A stretch of 64,000 nucleotides of DNA from Acidimicrobiales bacterium (GTDB taxonomy: Bacteria; Actinomycetota; Acidimicrobiia; Acidimicrobiales; DATDAH01). The notes under the pieces were generated by a model. It was not told the origin of the DNA, did not search any database, and saw only the letters and a program-made list of their open reading frames with translations. Location of the stretch: the NCBI GenBank assembly GCA_016794585.1, contig JAEUJM010000043.1:62001-126000 (forward strand). Reading direction: 5' to 3'. Below are positions 2,436-63,867 of this stretch, piece after piece. The position numbers and the translations under genes are program-made. The first letter of the stretch is position 1, and every line of letters starts with the position of its first letter.

Positions 2436-2891
2436 TCAGGCGGCGGCGTCGCGCTCGACCCAGGCCTTGAGCTCGCGGAGCGCGGTGTGCACGATGCGCG
2501 TCTCGGCACGGCGCTTCACGAAGCTGGGGAGCGGGACCACGAGCTCCACGGTGAGGTGGTACGTGACGTCGGTGCGCCCGGCGTCCCCGTCGACGGGGGC
2601 GAACTCGTACGAGCCGTCGAGCTGGCGGGTGATGTCGCTCTCGAGGAGCTGCCAGGAGAGCGTGTGGGGCAACGCGCTGTAGTCGTAGCCCAGCACGTAC
2701 GTGGTGCTGCGCCCCATGGCCGCGGCGCGGTAGCGCACCTTGGTGCCGCGGCCCTCGCCATCTCGCTCGAGGACCTCGGTCTCTTTGATGTCGTGGGCCC
2801 AGCTCGGGTAGTCCTCGAAGGCGAGGGTCGCCTCGAGGACGCGCTCGGGCGACGCGTCGATGGTGGTGCGCTCGGTGGCCTGGTCCGGCAT
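2436..2891 (-). CDS. SRPBCC (START-like) family protein
   Basis: 151 residues from ATG at 2891. The sequence has the SRPBCC/polyketide-cyclase-like pattern: an N-terminal TTIDASPERVLEATLAFEDYPSWAHDI strand-helix, a run of beta strands (VRYRAAAMGRSTTYVLGYDY), and a long C-terminal helix (RAETRIVHTALRELKAWVER). Such proteins form a hydrophobic cavity for lipids or polyketides. It lies 11 bases after a 4-TM protein gene and 7 bases before the ArsA ATPase, so it is probably in the same transcript. The ligand cannot be read from sequence. Confidence 0.8.
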   Translation of the reverse strand: MPDQATERTTIDASPERVLEATLAFEDYPSWAHDIKETEVLERDGEGRGTKVRYRAAAMGRSTTYVLGYDYSALPHTLSWQLLESDITRQLDGSYEFAPVDGDAGRTDVTYHLTVELVVPLPSFVKRRAETRIVHTALRELKAWVERDAAA

Positions 2892-2902
2892 CGACACGGA
2901 TC

Positions 2903-3406
2903 CTACTTGGAGGGCGCCGTGCCGCCCGGCTTCTCGTCGTCGAAGCGCGGGCCGAAGTGGCCGTAGCGGGCGCCCCAGAGCCCGGCCTGGGCGAGGCCGA
3001 ACATCGGCACGAGCACACCGAAGGCCAGGCTGGTGAACGGGCGCAGCCCGGCCGTCACCAGGGCCACGGCGACCTGGACCCCGAAGGGCACGAGCAAGGC
3101 CACCTGCACGGCCCGCGGCGCGCTGCCCTGGAGGAAGTAGAGGCCGCCGATGCCGATGGCGTCGGTGCGGCTCCGGCCCACCGCGATCCCGAAGGCCCAC
3201 AGGAAGACCACGCAGCCGATGAGGAACAGGACCAGCGCGACCGCGACGGCGACGAGGCCGAAGACGTCGCCATCGATCACCGCGGCGATCGCGGTGGCGA
3301 CGAACGCGGCGGTGCCCACCCGGCTGACGAGGACGATGCGGGACCCCGGGGTGGGGGCGTCCTCGACGGGTTCATCCCCGCTCGCGCCCGGTGCCACGTC
3401 GCTCAC
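2903..3406 (-). CDS. Four-TM membrane protein (167 aa)
   Basis: GTG at 3406 overlaps the stop of the mannosyltransferase gene by four bases (GTGA). Hydrophobic segments at about residues 25-45, 48-72, 100-122 and 128-148 predict four membrane helices; the N-terminal ~22 residues are acidic and the C-terminus is charged (FDDEKPGGTAPSK). No enzymatic motif is visible. It sits inside a tight minus-strand cluster between the PimB-like enzyme and the SRPBCC protein, which suggests an envelope-related role; this is inferred from position only. Confidence 0.75.
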   Translation of the reverse strand: MSDVAPGASGDEPVEDAPTPGSRIVLVSRVGTAAFVATAIAAVIDGDVFGLVAVAVALVLFLIGCVVFLWAFGIAVGRSRTDAIGIGGLYFLQGSAPRAVQVALLVPFGVQVAVALVTAGLRPFTSLAFGVLVPMFGLAQAGLWGARYGHFGPRFDDEKPGGTAPSK

Positions 3407-4518
3407 GGGAGGGCTCCGGCGAGGCGCTCGACCAGCACCTCGTAGGCGAACTCGGCCTCGGCCCGCGCCCGGGCGGCCTCGCCCATGCGGCGGCGACGCT
3501 CGGGGTCGTCGAGGAGGGCGGCGAGGGCCGCGGTGACCTCGTCCACGTCGTGGGGGTCCCCGACGACGAGGCCGGTGTCCCCGTCTACCACGGCCTCGGC
3601 CGAACCTCCGCTCTCCCCTGCCACCTGGGCGACGCCCGCCGCCGCCGCCTCGAGGAACACGATGCCGAAGCCCTCCTGCTCGAGGCCGGCCCAGCGGCTG
3701 CGGCAGAGCATGGCGAACACGTCGGCGCAACCGTAGAGGTCGGGCAGGTCGTCGTCGGGCACCCGCCCGAGCAGCCGCACGGGGGCGCCCGTGTCCGCCA
3801 CGAGGCGATCGAGCCGGGCGCGGTCCCGGCCGCTGCCGGCGATGGCCACCAGGAGGTCGGGCCGACCTTCCGCCAGCCGCGCCGCGCTGCGGATGAGCAC
3901 GTCCATCCCCTTCCGGGGGACGAGGCGACTGAGGCTGACCACGAGACGGGCGTCCTCGGGGAGGTCGAGTCGACGGCGGGCGGCGAGGCGCTGCTCGTCG
4001 TCGAGGGGACGGAACCGCTCGACGTCGACCCCGGGCGGCACGATCGTGGTGGGCAACGACCGGCCGGCGGCCCGCTCGCCCTCGGCGGCCGGGTAGCCAC
4101 CGGCGGCGATCACCACCTCAGCGCCGCGCAGCACGCGGCGCAGGGCGAGGTTGGTGCCCGGGAGCCGCCCCGGGATGGTGACCTCGGCGCCGTGGAGGAT
4201 GACGCCGTAGGGCCGCTCGAGGTGGGGGCCGACGAGGCCCACGGGCAGCGCGGGATCGAGCAGGACGAGATCGGCGTCGACCTCGGCGGCGAGCCGGTCG
4301 ATGTGGCGCACCAGCAGCGGGTTGGGCAACAGCACCGGTTCACGGGTGCGCTCGACCCGGTAGGCCTGGGCCGCGTCCCACTCGGTGGCGCCGTCGTAGG
4401 GCGTGGTGAGCACGGTGGTGGACTCGGGCGGGAGCCGGCGCCACAGCTCCCACAGGTACGACTGGATGCCACCCACCTTGGGCGGGAAGTCGTTGGTGAC
4501 CAGGAGGTGGTGCCTCAC
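3403..4518 (-). CDS. pimB: GT4 glycosyltransferase, PimB-like mannosyltransferase
   Basis: 371 residues from GTG at 4518. The N-terminus LLVTNDFPPKVGGIQSYLWE is the hallmark of actinobacterial PimB', which adds the second mannose to phosphatidylinositol mannoside from GDP-mannose on the cytoplasmic face of the membrane. The C-terminal Rossmann domain contains SLSRLVPRKGMDVLI and the retaining GT4 motif EGFGIVFLEAAAAG (E-x7-E). Length fits the family (about 375-380). The start overlaps the queG stop (GTGA) and its own stop overlaps the 4-TM gene. The longer upstream frame is Arg/Pro-rich shadow of queG. Acceptor specificity is inferred from similarity. Confidence 0.85.
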   Translation of the reverse strand: MRHHLLVTNDFPPKVGGIQSYLWELWRRLPPESTTVLTTPYDGATEWDAAQAYRVERTREPVLLPNPLLVRHIDRLAAEVDADLVLLDPALPVGLVGPHLERPYGVILHGAEVTIPGRLPGTNLALRRVLRGAEVVIAAGGYPAAEGERAAGRSLPTTIVPPGVDVERFRPLDDEQRLAARRRLDLPEDARLVVSLSRLVPRKGMDVLIRSAARLAEGRPDLLVAIAGSGRDRARLDRLVADTGAPVRLLGRVPDDDLPDLYGCADVFAMLCRSRWAGLEQEGFGIVFLEAAAAGVAQVAGESGGSAEAVVDGDTGLVVGDPHDVDEVTAALAALLDDPERRRRMGEAARARAEAEFAYEVLVERLAGALP

Positions 4519-5582
4519 CGGCCCACCTCGACCCGCACGGCGTGACGGCCGGCGCGGGCCGCCAGCCGCTCGGCGGCCCAGGTGGCGTGCTCGCGGAGCA
4601 GCGCGTCGTCGCCGGCCCGGGCCCGGTCGACGACGCGCCGGACCTCGGCGTCGCCGGGGTCCGCGGTGTTGCCCAGGGCGAGCAGGGCGTTGCGGCGGAG
4701 GTGGCGGGGGTCCCGGTCGGCGATGTACCAACGTCCGTGTCGGGCGAGCAGGGTGGCGTCGTCGGCGTCGAGCAGGGCGACGAGATCGACCGAGGCCGTG
4801 CCGTCGGGGTCGACCTCGGCGGACTCGCGCCGATCGGTGCGGCGGTTGGGCGGGCACACCTCCTGGCAGTCGTCACACCCGTAGATGCGGTTGCCGAGCG
4901 CCACCCGGTGCTCGACCGGGAAGGGGCCGGGCGCCTGCACCAGCCACGCCAGGCAACGTCGCGCGTCGATCACCCCGGGAGCGACGATGGCCCCGGTGGG
5001 ACACCCGTCGAGGCACCGCGTGCAGGTGCCGCACCCGTCGGGCACCGGCTTGACGGCGGGCGTCAGTGCGGCGTCGGTGACCACCGAGCCGAGCACGAAC
5101 CAACTGCCCCGGCCGGGCAGCAGCACGTTGGCGTTCTTGCCGTACCACCCGAGCCCGGCCCGCACCGCCGCTTCGCGGTCGACCAGGGCGTTGTCGTCGA
5201 CGAGCACCCGTGTGCGCCACCCCTGATCCTGGAGGTGGGCGGCCATCGCATCGAGTCCCGCCCGGAGGGTGGCGTAGTGGTCGTGGCGGGCGTACCGGGC
5301 CACCCGGCCGGATGGACGGGCGGCGGGCACGTCCTGGGGCCCCTCGGCCGACTCGTGGGCGTAGGACCGCGCTCCGACCACCAGCGCCCGGGCCCCGGGG
5401 AGGGCCTGGCCGGGGTCGGTCGATCGTTCGGGCCGGCGGTAGGTGAACTGCATGCCGGCGGCCAACCCCTGGGCCTTGCGCTCGTCGAGGTCGCGCCGCG
5501 TCCGCTCGAACGGGGTGGCCGGGGCCACGCCGACGGCATCCAGGCCCGCCGCCCGGCCCACCGCCGCGAGCGCGTCGATCAC
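4515..5582 (-). CDS. queG: Epoxyqueuosine reductase QueG
   Basis: 355 residues. QueG is a cobalamin-dependent iron-sulfur enzyme that reduces epoxyqueuosine to queuosine in the anticodon of tRNAs with GUN anticodons. The N-terminal domain (VGVAPATPFERTRRDLDERK) precedes a ferredoxin-like region with cysteines at 184, 187, 190 and 194, then 210, and 236, 239 and 243, enough for the two [4Fe-4S] clusters of the family. A short C-terminal helical-repeat region (HLRRNALLALGNTADPGDAE) follows, as in many family members. It is first in the coupled queG-pimB-4TM cluster. No other queuosine gene is present in the window. Confidence 0.92.
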   Translation of the reverse strand: MIDALAAVGRAAGLDAVGVAPATPFERTRRDLDERKAQGLAAGMQFTYRRPERSTDPGQALPGARALVVGARSYAHESAEGPQDVPAARPSGRVARYARHDHYATLRAGLDAMAAHLQDQGWRTRVLVDDNALVDREAAVRAGLGWYGKNANVLLPGRGSWFVLGSVVTDAALTPAVKPVPDGCGTCTRCLDGCPTGAIVAPGVIDARRCLAWLVQAPGPFPVEHRVALGNRIYGCDDCQEVCPPNRRTDRRESAEVDPDGTASVDLVALLDADDATLLARHGRWYIADRDPRHLRRNALLALGNTADPGDAEVRRVVDRARAGDDALLREHATWAAERLAARAGRHAVRVEVGR

Positions 5583-60405: not shown

Positions 60406-60454
60406 CGGTGGGCCCGGCAGGGATCGAACCTGCAACCGAGCGATTATGAGTCGC
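60406..60454. repeat. Left attachment-site repeat (tRNA-Met 3' part)
   Basis: Identical over 49 bases to 63792-63840. It covers the acceptor 3' strand, T-arm and anticodon arm of tRNA-Met(CAT) but lacks the 5' half, so it is not a functional tRNA. Confidence 0.9.
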
Positions 60455-60611
60455 GACCCCAGCATCCGGCCCCGTCCGGGCGGATGCTCCCCCATCCCGA
60501 AACGCCTGTGATCTCGGGCCGATCAGCCACCCGACGGCGGACCGTCATCCGGCCCCGTCCGCCCCAGTTGGCTGACGTTCGTTTGCACGCCGTTTGCAGC
60601 GGTCGCGAGGG
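60455..60611. other. Left-end non-coding segment of island
   Basis: A hairpin GCATCCG/CGGATGC lies at 60462-60468 and 60481-60487. The 16-mer CATCCGGCCCCGTCCG occurs at 60463-60478 and again at 60546-60561. Two GTTTGCA motifs are at 60581 and 60592. No gene is seen. Confidence 0.55.
60581..60598. promoter_or_regulatory. Left-end paired GTTTGCA motifs (11-bp period)
   Basis: GTTTGCA at 60581-60587 and 60592-60598, same orientation, 11 bases apart. The same arrangement occurs at the right end. Likely arm-type or excisionase-binding sites. Confidence 0.5.
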
Positions 60612-61211
60612 TCACGCCATCAGCGAGCCGCCGAGCCACTTCTCGTCGAGACCCGGCAGTTGGCACTCAACTAGCTGATGCCAGTGGCGGTCGTCCAAGG
60701 AACAGCTCACCAGGAGGCGCAGCACGCCGGGGGCCAGCTGTTCTGCCCGGTGGGCTTCGATCGTACGACGGTCGCCCGCGCTCAGGGTCCCGAGGTCCTG
60801 CATCCGGCGGGCCGAGACAGCGTTGCCGGGTTCCCCGATCCAGGTGATGATCCCACCCTCGTCGTAGTCGAGGAGCTGGACTGTGTCGACCTCGTACACG
60901 AGCGGGCCTGAGCACTCGAGGCGGACGAGCTCGCCCCAGGCGTCGGCTGTCGGTCCGATGTGGACCAGGGCGAGGACTGGCGCTGTCTCGCGGTGGTGTC
61001 GGTCGCCTTCGATCCTCGCCACGTCCTCAGATGCGTGGGCGCCTCGCTCGGCTGCCGCGGCCGAGGCCACGGCGGCGTCGGCCGCTCGTCGTGCCTCTTC
61101 GTTGGCCTGGTCGACGCGCCCGTTGGCCCGCATAGCCACGACTACGGCTCCGATCGACACGCCGCCGGCGGCGAGTACTCCGATGGCCTCGGTGGTCGAC
61201 TGCCAGCTCAC
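60612..61211 (-). CDS. Membrane-anchored island protein A (199 aa)
   Basis: GTG 61211. An N-terminal membrane helix (~8-28, EAIGVLAAGGVSIGAVVVAM) is followed by an Ala/Glu-rich coiled coil (RVDQANEEARRAADAAVASA), then the motif VARIEGDRHHRETAPVLALV and a ~110-residue beta-rich domain. The DRxHxExxP motif is shared with the next gene upstream, so the two look like paralogues. Located 25 bases after that gene's stop. Function unknown. Confidence 0.75.
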   Translation of the reverse strand: MSWQSTTEAIGVLAAGGVSIGAVVVAMRANGRVDQANEEARRAADAAVASAAAAERGAHASEDVARIEGDRHHRETAPVLALVHIGPTADAWGELVRLECSGPLVYEVDTVQLLDYDEGGIITWIGEPGNAVSARRMQDLGTLSAGDRRTIEAHRAEQLAPGVLRLLVSCSLDDRHWHQLVECQLPGLDEKWLGGSLMA

Positions 61212-61236
61212 GGTCGGCGACCTCTCCCGTCGTCAA

Positions 61237-61743
61237 TCATCGCGGCCCCCTGGACACGAGGCCGCCGCGCCGACCGGAGGAGGGGTACTCGACCTCGGCG
61301 GCGAGGGTCCAGCGCTCATCGCCTGCGTAAGCGACCAGCTGCAGCCTGAGGAGTTCGCTGTTGGATGAAGGGTCCCTGAGCCCCGTAAGTACCTCGCGAT
61401 GCCCGACCTCGAACGGAGCGACAGGCCCTGATCGGACGAACCCATCGCCGCCGGCGAACAGCATCCCCAAGATCGGGGGCGTGTCGTGGGCGTCGACGAC
61501 GATGGTGGCCTCGAGGTTCGTGAGGGTCGGCCCTGAGACGAGGCGGAACTCGAGGCGCTCGTTGCCGTCCTGGGCCCGGGAGAGGCGGCGCACCTCGACG
61601 ACCGGTGTTCTCTCGTCGTGGCGGCGGTCGCTGTCGATCGAGCTCAGATCCTCCGTGGCCACGGCCTGGCGGTACGTGTACGAGGCGCTGGCGACCGCTA
61701 CGCAGAGAGCGAACAGCGAGATGAAGAACGCGGCGAAGATCAC
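61237..61743 (-). CDS. Membrane-anchored island protein B (168 aa)
   Basis: GTG 61743 overlaps the HTH gene stop (GTGA). One N-terminal membrane helix (FAAFFISLFALCVAVASASY), then SSIDSDRRHDERTPVVEVRR and a beta-rich domain (LEFRLVSGPTLTNLEATIVV; RLQLVAYAGDERWTLAAEVE). It is shorter than protein A because the coiled coil is missing. Function unknown; similar DRRHxExTP modules occur in hypothetical proteins of actinobacterial integrative elements as far as I recall. Confidence 0.75.
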   Translation of the reverse strand: MIFAAFFISLFALCVAVASASYTYRQAVATEDLSSIDSDRRHDERTPVVEVRRLSRAQDGNERLEFRLVSGPTLTNLEATIVVDAHDTPPILGMLFAGGDGFVRSGPVAPFEVGHREVLTGLRDPSSNSELLRLQLVAYAGDERWTLAAEVEYPSSGRRGGLVSRGPR

Positions 61744-61943
61744 GGCTGGGGGCCGTCGACGAACGCGACGACCGAAGCGCGAGAGATGAGCCGGCGGCGG
61801 ATGCCGGGCACCTTCCGCTCGTAGGTCAGGCCGGCGTCGAGGAGGCGGTCGACCGTGGTGCGGGAGACCCCGATCAGGTCGGCGGCTTCCTGCACGGTGC
61901 AGGTGAGAAGCTGGTCGTCGTCGTGGTCCTGTGTGGAGGTCAC
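61740..61943 (-). CDS. Excisionase-like HTH protein (67 aa)
   Basis: GTG 61943. The MerR/Xis-like helix-turn-helix CTVQEAADLIGVSRTTVDRL is followed by a KVPGIRRRLISRASVVAFVD wing, typical of excisionase-family DNA-binding proteins. Coupled on both sides by four-base overlaps. It could direct excision of the island or repress its operon. A C-terminal remnant of a similar gene lies at 62822-62893. Confidence 0.85.
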   Translation of the reverse strand: MTSTQDHDDDQLLTCTVQEAADLIGVSRTTVDRLLDAGLTYERKVPGIRRRLISRASVVAFVDGPQP

Positions 61944-62155
61944 GATGTGCCTCTACGGCCGGGGTGTGACGCGGCCCACTGCTCGATGTCCTGCCGGCGC
62001 CAGAGCACGCAGCGGCCGGCTCCCTTCTCGACGAACGGCGCCGGGAAGTCCCCGCTGTATCGGTCTCGGTAGACGCTTACCACCCGGTTGTTGGCCAAGC
62101 CCAGCAGCTGGGCGACGTCGTGGGAGTCGAGGAGGTCGTCAGGGTCGATCACCAT
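61940..62155 (-). CDS. AlpA/MerR-like HTH protein (71 aa)
   Basis: ATG 62155 with AGGG 7 bases upstream; GTG 62161 is possible. DSHDVAQLLGLANNRVVSVY and YSGDFPAPFVEKGAGRCVLW followed by RQDIEQWAASHPG match small phage/ICE regulators of the AlpA type. First gene of the four-gene minus operon. Probably an autoregulator or second directionality factor. Confidence 0.82.
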   Translation of the reverse strand: MVIDPDDLLDSHDVAQLLGLANNRVVSVYRDRYSGDFPAPFVEKGAGRCVLWRRQDIEQWAASHPGRRGTS

Positions 62156-62240
62156 CGGCACCCTAGTTGACGATCCTCATCACGACGCATCCCCGGTCAC
62201 TGGATCGGCCCCACGGAAGCAACAGCGCGAGTGGCGGACC

Positions 62241-62369
62241 GTGGAGCTCGTCGACGACGGATCCGACCCGGCCCCGCTCGCGCAGGCGTTCCGTGACCGG
62301 TGGGCGCCCGGGCTGAACGAATCCACCGCGGTCGACGTCGGCGAGTGGGTGCGGGAGTGGGCGCCGTGA
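62241..62369 (+). CDS. Possible 42-aa island protein
   Basis: GTG 62241 gives VELVDDGSDPAPLAQAFRDR plus an acidic helical tail. Its stop overlaps the GTG of the next frame by four bases, as for true coupled genes here. The interval from 62156 has no other gene. Start uncertain, as the frame extends upstream without another good start. Confidence 0.4.
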   Translation: MELVDDGSDPAPLAQAFRDRWAPGLNESTAVDVGEWVREWAP

Positions 62370-62613
62370 GCGACCTTCTCGTCGGGGCCCCTCCGGGCCG
62401 CAAGGTCCCCCACCCTTACCAGCTGGCCGACCTCCTCGACGCCCTCGCCATCCCCTCGAGACGAGGCTGGCTCAGGCCCGCCGACTCGGGCCCGACCGCG
62501 GGCACCTTCACCGGCTGGCCCGCACCGGGCTCACCGAGGAGATGGCGGACCGTCTCGCCTGCAGGGCCGGCCTGCACCCCGGTACCGTCTGGCCGCACTG
62601 GTGGCCTGACTAA
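62366..62613 (+). pseudogene. Frameshifted small island gene
   Basis: GTG 62366 opens VSDLLVGAPPGRKVPHPYQL-ADLLDALAIP, but the natural continuation LETRLAQARRLGPDRG then LTEEMADRLACRAGLHPGTV-WPHWW (stop TAA 62611) is in another frame. The joint lies near 62450-62460 at a C-rich run. The second part resembles small actinobacterial element proteins ending LHPxxVWPxW. Either a frameshift mutation, a sequencing error or a programmed shift. Confidence 0.6.
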
Positions 62614-62625
62614 GGGGGCGTGGCG

Positions 62626-62826
62626 ATGACCGACGGCGAGAAGGCGATCGTGGACGAACTGAGCTCGCTCAGGCTGGAGGTGGTGCAGCTCCATCAGCGG
62701 GTTGCGCAAGTCGACCGCAGCGCCACGATCATGCTGGTGTTCTTGCTGATCATCGGCGGGCTCGTCGCAGCGATCGCTCTCGGATGGGTCGAGGTGGCCA
62801 TCAAGGTGAAGGACGCCAGCTTTTGA
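62626..62826 (+). CDS. Coiled-coil plus one-TM protein (66 aa)
   Basis: ATG 62626 (GTG 62620 in frame). A short coiled coil (IVDELSSLRLEVVQLHQRVA) is followed by one membrane helix (IMLVFLLIIGGLVAAIALGW) and a small basic tail. Size and layout recall small phage membrane proteins, but holin function is not shown. A GGGGG stretch precedes the start. Confidence 0.65.
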   Translation: MTDGEKAIVDELSSLRLEVVQLHQRVAQVDRSATIMLVFLLIIGGLVAAIALGWVEVAIKVKDASF

Positions 62827-62893
62827 GGCCGCGCCGCCTCGACAGGCGCGGCTGATCCGCCTCGCTTCTGTCGTCGCGTTCGTCGACGCCTAG
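62822..62893 (+). pseudogene. Remnant of an excisionase-like HTH gene (3' end)
   Basis: The frame ending at TAG 62891 reads RQARLIRLASVVAFVDA, closely matching the C-terminus of the intact HTH gene (RRRLISRASVVAFVD). A 19-base stretch (62870-62888) is identical, in opposite orientation, to 61754-61772. No start or HTH part remains. Nothing convincing is seen from 62894 to 63081. Confidence 0.6.
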
Positions 62894-63081
62894 GAACGGC
62901 CCGGAGGGGCGCATATGCCGCGCACGTCGCACTCGACGGCGTCAGCGGCATCGCGCAACAGGGCCGCTACGGACATCAGCGTGGACAGCGGGCGGCGACA
63001 ACCGCGCTGCTCGTACTCGCGGGCGACCGGCTGACCGCCGCGGCGGCCGACGCCCTCGACCAGGCGCTCGGCTCATGGACG

Positions 63082-63702
63082 TCAGCTGCCCCGGATAGGT
63101 GACGGGTCAAACGGCCACGTTGTGATCGGGTCGCCGTTCGTCGTTGTGCTCGGCGTGCCCAAGAATGTGTACGGCTCCCCCAGATCTCCGAGATCCTCTG
63201 GGTGGTCCAGGTCGAAGCGCGCCGACCAGTTGACGAACGCCTCGGCGACGACCTCGGCACCTTCCAGGGCCTCGGCCATCAGCGGTGTCAACTGACCGAC
63301 GAAGGTGCCGAAGACCTCGAGCACATCGACCGTCAACCTCAGGACGTTCCACGGGAGGCCTTCCAGGCGGTCCATCGAAAGGTGCGCCACCTGCACGTTC
63401 ACGGCATCGCGACGGTCACCGAGCGGCCGCACTGGGGTCCAATGCGAGACGTAGTCGAGTGCCATGACGTCCCGCATCTCTCTCCCAGCGATGACCGGGC
63501 GCTTCTTCATGCCGAAGAAGTCATCGAGCAGGCGGAGGTGCACAAGCGACGAGATCATGAACGCGCTCTGAGCGGCGCGATCTAGGATCCCGGGCCCGTT
63601 CTGCCACATGGCTGCCGTGTGAGCAGCGATGCAGACCTCGTACTCAAGATGCGTCCGAGCGAAACGCTCCAGTTCGTCGGGTGTGAAGGACACAGATCCC
63701 AT
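63082..63702 (-). CDS. Island protein of unknown function (206 aa)
   Basis: ATG 63702. Soluble, mostly helical; features include MGSVSFTPDELERFARTHLE, a LVHLRLLDDFFGMKKRPVIA segment and a central DRRDAVNVQVAHLSMDRLEG. No recognised catalytic motif. It is the last island gene before the right-end GTTTGCA motifs and tRNA. Cargo function unknown. Confidence 0.78.
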   Translation of the reverse strand: MGSVSFTPDELERFARTHLEYEVCIAAHTAAMWQNGPGILDRAAQSAFMISSLVHLRLLDDFFGMKKRPVIAGREMRDVMALDYVSHWTPVRPLGDRRDAVNVQVAHLSMDRLEGLPWNVLRLTVDVLEVFGTFVGQLTPLMAEALEGAEVVAEAFVNWSARFDLDHPEDLGDLGEPYTFLGTPSTTTNGDPITTWPFDPSPIRGS

Positions 63703-63714
63703 TGCTCCGCTCCC

Positions 63715-63732
63715 GTTTGCAGATGGTTTGCA
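63715..63732. promoter_or_regulatory. Right-end paired GTTTGCA motifs (11-bp period)
   Basis: GTTTGCA at 63715-63721 and 63726-63732, with the same orientation and 11-base period as the left-end pair. Located between the last island gene and the tRNA-Met repeat. Confidence 0.5.
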
Positions 63733-63791
63733 TCACGCCCTCCCGCGCCCGTGGATGAGCTGGCGGGGCGCAGCGTTTCCCCTTGTCAGGA

Positions 63792-63840
63792 CGGTGGGCC
63801 CGGCAGGGATCGAACCTGCAACCGAGCGATTATGAGTCGC
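63792..63840. repeat. Right attachment-site repeat (within tRNA-Met)
   Basis: 49-base copy of 60406-60454; it forms the anticodon arm through 3' end of the intact tRNA-Met gene plus three flanking bases. Confidence 0.9.
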
Positions 63841-63867
63841 CTGCTCTGACCATTGAGCTACGGGCCC
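63795..63867 (-). tRNA. tRNA-Met (CAT), elongator type
   Basis: 73 nt on the minus strand: acceptor GGGCCCG/CGGGCCC with discriminator A, D-arm GCTC-AATGGTCA-GAGC, anticodon arm GGCGA-CTCATAA-TCGCT (anticodon CAT), T-arm GCAGG-TTCGATC-CCTGC. The GCGACTCATAATCGC arm is typical of elongator Met; a tRNA-Ile2 (modified CAT) cannot be excluded. CCA is not encoded. Integration site of the island. Confidence 0.93.

Follow-up and report, generated by a model that had tools for sequence, protein, structure and literature searches.

A small integrase-free island in a tRNA-Met gene of an Acidimicrobiales bacterium carries predicted integrase arm sites at both ends

Introduction

How does an island that encodes no recombinase come to lie in a tRNA gene, and could it still move? 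The question is raised by the tRNA-Met locus in a window of 64,000 nucleotides (positions 62,001 to 126,000 of contig JAEUJM010000043.1, assembly GCA_016794585.1) from an Acidimicrobiales bacterium; all coordinates below are those of this window unless another genome is named. The initial annotation, made from the letters alone, described a perfect 49-bp repeat of the 3' part of tRNA-Met that encloses ~3.4 kb without an integrase, and took the island for a satellite mobilised in trans or for a remnant that had kept its directionality factors. It overlooked what we regard as the strongest evidence on the island, a pair of GTTTGCA heptamers inside each end. With these pairs, the island is probably a derivative of the cis-mobilizable element (CIME) type, whose cis sites are intact and which appears stranded, movable solely by a matching helper integrase.

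Arm-type sites at both ends of the island

A repeat search and ARAGORN found the repeat exactly as annotated: its copies at 60406-60454 and 63792-63840 are 100% identical and spaced by 3,386 bp, and the 5.5-Mb genome contains the 49-bp core only at these two island ends. The tRNA-Asn gene adjoins tRNA-Met just beyond the window edge. The island has a G+C content of 68.6%, compared with 72.6% in the remainder of the window, and since it lies inside a contig of 246,846 bp (genome 98.4% complete, 51 contigs), an assembly edge does not account for it. We compared the locus with its counterparts in relatives, that is, in genomes of the same order, none of the same family. The site lies in a conserved neighbourhood (dnaG-sigma factor-tRNA-Asn-tRNA-Met), and the orthologous sigma factor-tRNA-Asn-tRNA-Met locus normally holds one tRNA-Met; most relatives carry this single copy and not both fragments, in line with the insertion proposed in the annotation. 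This, together with the arm sites at the ends, indicates that the island is an integrated element and not vertical tRNA debris. No yggT gene adjoining tRNA-Met was found in the relatives, and two of them (G018 and G005) have yggT elsewhere.

The window contains four copies of GTTTGCA, all of them within the island, and these form two tandem pairs of the same orientation with a period of 11 bp. No match to GTTTGCA-N4-GTTTGCA is expected by chance (0 in 100 shuffles), and the whole genome contains the two island pairs and no others. A repeat pair on either side of the core is the arm-type binding-site layout of tyrosine integrases in lambda-like recombination. The GTTTGCA pairs are almost certainly such integrase arm sites, and the island appears to retain a complete attP in two halves.

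Occurrence of the motif at other tRNA genes

A search of 397 genomes from the order found 14 GTTTGCA pairs, distributed over 12 genomes, while the reversed motif had a single match; in four other genomes of the order the pair adjoins a tRNA 3' end. One genome (G177) has the pair at the same tRNA-Met with an arm spacing of 61 bp; its sequence ends 119 bp past the arms. To cover named genomes and viral contigs, we used a composite pattern consisting of the pair, 65-95 bp and an antisense T-loop. The matches numbered at least 116 in the named genomes and 21 in the viral contigs and are referred to below as the 137 motif loci. Among the controls in the viral collection, the reversed motif gave two matches, without integrase, and the opposite orientation gave 11, five of them in one tRNA array. 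A composite pattern with GGGATCGAACC had no match in the viral contigs.

In 97 of the 137 loci, drawn from many phyla, ARAGORN predicted a tRNA whose 3' end is at a distance of 47-78 bp from the pair. The distances (loci L067-L203) fall into three classes of about 50, 60 and 70 bp (47-52, 55-62 and 66-74 bp), which are ~10-11 bp apart and show a strong periodicity of 10.5-11 bp. Such helical phasing would follow if contacts with the protein determined the face of the helix, and the 60-bp spacing of the island belongs to the middle class. At 40 of the 137 loci, including 15 of the 21 viral ones, an integrase gene terminates at the pair, mostly 5-35 bp before it, and nearly all of these integrases are of one subfamily with the signature SERLGH..TLDTYSHVLPGMQ. 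The arm motif is associated with one integrase subfamily at these other loci. The tyrosine integrase elements with GTTTGCA arms at tRNA genes (in Bacillota, Actinomycetota, Chloroflexota and others) share motif, orientation and tRNA-proximal spacing with the island but, unlike it, encode their integrase right at the pair. Among the titles listed for open-access papers matching the heptamer and 'integrase', none describes GTTTGCA as an arm site.

The geometry of the distal end is comparable too: measured from the start of the tRNA repeat, the left pair lies at 119-197 bp in four other loci (L084, L148, L175 and L202) and at 176 bp in the window island. The first of these, in a metagenome-assembled genome labelled Bifidobacterium breve, is a 1,407-bp island in tRNA-Thr (2626-4082) that has a repeat of 52 bp and an arm pair at each end. 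It contains an open reading frame of 163 aa and, beside the right pair, an integrase reduced to its last ~31 codons. Since L084 keeps both pairs with the integrase tail only, loss of an integrase can leave both arm sets intact. In the window island, the start of the 206-aa gene occupies the position taken in intact elements by the integrase stop codon; because this start is only 12 bp from the right arms, the integrase appears to have been replaced here, not merely truncated as in L084.

In Flavobacteria and relatives (L070, L079, L087, L088, L099, L146, L149, L159 and L162), the GTTTGCA pair often lies ~48 bp from tRNA-Arg(TCT). No integrase was detected near these tRNA-Arg(TCT) genes, and the loci may represent another integrase class or fixed remnants.

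Search for an integrase and a helper

The island was annotated as lacking integrase and transfer genes, and our searches agree. Scans of its reading frames against Pfam, PHROG and NCBIfam gave no integrase or recombinase family, and no relaxase, coupling or transfer family. A search for an integrase relic was likewise negative, the best E value being 0.025 in tblastn with 29 integrases and 0.2 in a six-frame hmmsearch. The stretch 62827-63099 (+) was considered as an integrase C-terminus and rejected: its 3.4 bits are about the best of 1,000 shuffles, tblastn gave nothing, and a genome search returned weak, scattered matches of compositional appearance.

The genome has 11 Pfam matches to tyrosine recombinases. 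The check suggested in the annotation, for a recombinase whose own element has the same att core, was negative: none of the 11 has adjoining GTTTGCA arms, and the genome has no further copy of the core. Three of these integrases (L003, L005 and L007) form one clade near the arm subfamily. As candidate helpers they were all rejected, as the arms of L003 are CAGTAGAAA and not GTTTGCA, L005 is interrupted by a transposase-like frame at the contig start, and L007 has no arm repeat. The L003 integrase belongs to a ~105-kb element of its own at tRNA-fMet in the same genome (G000:C42:38762-144372; L003, L236 and L237), which has pairs of a CAGTAGAA-type heptamer-like repeat as arms: one lies 70 bp from the tRNA, the other 163 bp from the beginning of the distal remnant. 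Its layout is like that of the window island, but the arm sequence is different, and its distal tRNA-fMet remnant is mutated, with only 20 bp shared exactly.

Origin and mobility of the island

These observations can be combined as follows. The element would have entered tRNA-Met through a tyrosine integrase that binds paired GTTTGCA heptamers with its arm-binding domain; on integration, the tRNA gene would have been made whole again at the right end, while the second copy of the core remained at the left end. The integrase was either lost from the island, as we infer, or never carried, whereas the core and both arm pairs, which are predicted to be functional, are retained at the geometry of intact elements together with two excisionase-like genes. 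If a helper integrase with matching core and arm specificity entered the cell, it could bring about excision or re-integration, and the island's own excisionase-like proteins might assist excision. The cargo is a small operon for helix-turn-helix (HTH) and membrane proteins plus one orphan protein. We call the island stranded because the resident genome shows no helper with matching core or arms. Nevertheless, mobility seems possible in principle, and since the core and arms are free of substitutions whereas the remnant of the 105-kb element has drifted, a recent insertion or continued use is suggested.

Several points weigh against this interpretation. The arm motif was first spotted in this very window (its validation is independent), and binding by an integrase is predicted. 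At 97 of the 137 motif loci no integrase was detected at the pair, in part because it may be encoded at the opposite end or outside the available sequence. Moreover, no integrase relic is demonstrable in the island, so that 'lost' and 'never had' are not distinguished. The probable frameshift in an HTH gene, an HTH gene fragment and the lack of a helper in the genome weigh against present autonomy.

Could the repeat have arisen by partial duplication of the tRNA gene through ordinary recombination, and not by site-specific integration? Recombination can duplicate tRNA fragments, but nothing specific points to it here; the arm-type sites, which lie symmetrically at both inner ends and occur nowhere else in the genome, and the identical 49-bp extent of the repeat in an integrase-bearing island in the same tRNA-Met of another genome (G340) make this origin very improbable. 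A dead relic, left when deletions reduced an old prophage or conjugative element, with sites that survived by chance and were never reused, would fit the frameshifted HTH frame, the HTH fragment and the missing helper at home, and L084 demonstrates that integrase deletion occurs. Still, the distal 49-bp copy and the arms are without substitution, in contrast to the mutated tRNA-fMet remnant of the resident 105-kb element, of which 20 bp are exact, and the operon with its overlapping genes is intact. We therefore rate a dead relic as possible but rather unlikely.

The lack of decay in the sites is also what speaks for a true minimal satellite, an integrase-free lineage that regularly travels with a phage or conjugative helper of the GTTTGCA-arm integrase type and supplies its own excisionase: the core (49/49) and the arms (4/4 heptamers) are pristine although the distal copy is not under tRNA selection, two excisionase-like genes have been kept, L084 is a further integrase-free island that has retained both arm pairs, and integrases of the GTTTGCA-arm class occur in viral contigs. 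However, none of the collections searched yielded a relative of the whole island, the genome has no helper of the same core and arms, the genes inside show likely decay, and there is no packaging or transfer gene, so that we consider such a satellite improbable. We find it more likely that the island is a CIME-like derivative whose integrase was lost than that it is a minimal satellite evolved to parasitise a helper. The readings offered by the annotation, a satellite mobilised in trans or a remnant with directionality factors, are partly supported: the cis sites that mobilisation in trans requires are intact, but given the lack of an element with the same core or arms in the genome and the likely gene decay, present mobilisation is no more than a possibility.

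Relation to known elements

Among the known kinds, the CIME fits best. CIMEs are elements that no longer have genes for integration and transfer but still possess attL and attR (PMC5704250). The island is likewise flanked by attL and attR, with core and arms at its bounds, and has no recombinase and no conjugation or mobilisation family in the scans. With respect to an origin by deletion, it contains likely decayed genes, but neither a recognisable parent nor an integrase relic was found. It differs from CIMEs in the lack of an identifiable parent among integrative and conjugative or integrative and mobilizable elements (ICEs and IMEs), in its very small size (3.4 kb), in its two excisionase-like genes and in the lack of an accreted neighbour. 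An IME would have a recombinase of its own, which the island lacks, and none of the integrase, replication and phage-interference genes of satellites resembling phage-inducible chromosomal islands (PICIs) was found in it. Clusters of attC sites lacking integron integrases (CALINs) and miniature inverted-repeat transposable elements (MITEs) are hitchers without integrase or transposase (PMC11389934). Like the island, they are non-autonomous DNA that keeps sites for an enzyme supplied in trans; they are, however, acted on by an integron integrase or a transposase, whereas the island combines a tRNA att site, integrase arm sites and protein genes.

The arm motif provides a sequence-defined prediction of which integrase subfamily placed the island and could move it, and can be used for finding further integrase-free tRNA islands; trans-mobilisation is directly testable through a 270-bp attP. 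More tentatively, and with considerable doubt, the island may stand for an overlooked class of integrase-free mini-islands that have the complete arm-bearing att sites of a widespread integrase subfamily, along with its directionality factors, and that visiting phages or conjugative elements of this subfamily move in trans. Programs that call islands by their integrase gene are unable to list this class. TIGER/Islander requires an integrase gene and excludes islands <2 kb (PMC12424338), and for these reasons the window island, L084 and an AbiEii-type mini-island described below would not be listed by it; such islands systematically escape notice.

Gene content

The features of the island are compiled in Table 1. 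Both HTH genes of the initial annotation were recovered as excisionase-like: the 67-aa protein matches TIGR01764 'excise' (7.2e-8) and HTH_17 (1.4e-7), the 73-aa protein matches phrog_597 (1.3e-10) and phrog_66 'excisionase' (7.3e-7). They may instead be simple operon regulators. The four genes for the 73-aa, 67-aa, 168-aa and 199-aa proteins form a minus-strand operon, the first three overlapping by 4 bp. The last two proteins had been described as membrane-anchored paralogues; their paralogy is supported (BLASTP 3e-10), while the anchor is a predicted helix in the 168-aa protein and thus only probable. This long N-terminal helix is the sole confident part of the 168-aa model, whose mean predicted local distance difference test (pLDDT) score is 51. 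The frameshifted HTH-type gene gave no significant match in a database search. The HTH fragment is 85% identical over 40 nt to the 67-aa HTH gene, as an inverted repeat (also E=2e-4). A scan of the island proteins against defence profiles gave weak HTH matches and nothing more.

The 206-aa protein is novel as claimed, with no family in Pfam, PHROG, NCBIfam or defence profiles. Its model (mean pLDDT 37), like that of the 168-aa protein, is too poor for a fold search. No relatives were detected in genome contigs, viral contigs, plasmids and 396 genomes of the phylum; the single relative found is in a genome of the same order (G142; 4e-9, 32% identity).

Table 1 Features of the tRNA-Met island (window coordinates)
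Feature	Coordinates	Strand	Remarks
Distal att copy	60406..60454	-	Duplicate of the 3' part of tRNA-Met, 49 bp; orphan copy
Left arm-type pair, GTTTGCA-CGCC-GTTTGCA	60581..60598	+	126 bp inside the core
199-aa protein, hydrophobic N-terminus, no family	60612..61211	-	Paralogue of the 168-aa protein
168-aa protein of no family, with an N-terminal helix that is probably a membrane anchor	61237..61743	-	
67-aa excisionase-family HTH protein	61740..61943	-	4-bp overlap with each neighbour; possible directionality factor or regulator
73-aa excisionase-family HTH protein	61940..62161	-	First gene of the four-gene operon
Probable frameshifted HTH-type gene, likely decayed	62366..62613	+	Two overlapping frames in the three-frame translation; putative
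68-aa small protein, one transmembrane stretch, no family	62620..62826	+	
Fragment like the C-terminus of the 67-aa HTH protein (RLIRLASVVAFVDA-stop)	62849..62893	+	From inverted repeat and translation
206-aa orphan protein	63082..63702	-	Start 12 bp from the right arm pair
Right arm-type pair, GTTTGCA-GATG-GTTTGCA	63715..63732	+	60 bp from the tRNA 3' end
Intact tRNA-Met(CAT)	63793..63867	-	ARAGORN; its 3' 48 bp fall in the proximal att copy (63792-63840)

The tRNA-Met locus in related genomes

Four other genomes of the order have an island in the same tRNA-Met, so the site is a hotspot. Two of these islands bear an integrase. The one in G340 (L218, C35, 2608-5602; 2.95 kb) resembles the window island in its tRNA-Met, repeat extent (49 bp) and similar size, but differs in having its own integrase, of another subfamily, and no GTTTGCA arms. 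It encodes this integrase, a PD-(D/E)XK nuclease (PF20796, 3.6e-55) and two small genes, and is a candidate compact defence island. The island in G002 measures 5.0 kb. The other two are integrase-free and without GTTTGCA arms, and with the window island and L084 they make integrase-free islands a recurrent finding. In G011 (L061, C6, 496-2128), an island of 1.6 kb with a 45-bp tRNA repeat holds genes for an XRE-type HTH protein and an AbiEii-type nucleotidyltransferase and nothing else. In G041 (L062, C281, 671-5770), no integrase was found in 5.05 kb. This locus has three copies of the tRNA-Met 3' part, one of them (at 5449) 87% identical, and a 40-nt direct repeat pair at 5553 and 5661; the triple copies suggest tandem accretion of decayed islands.

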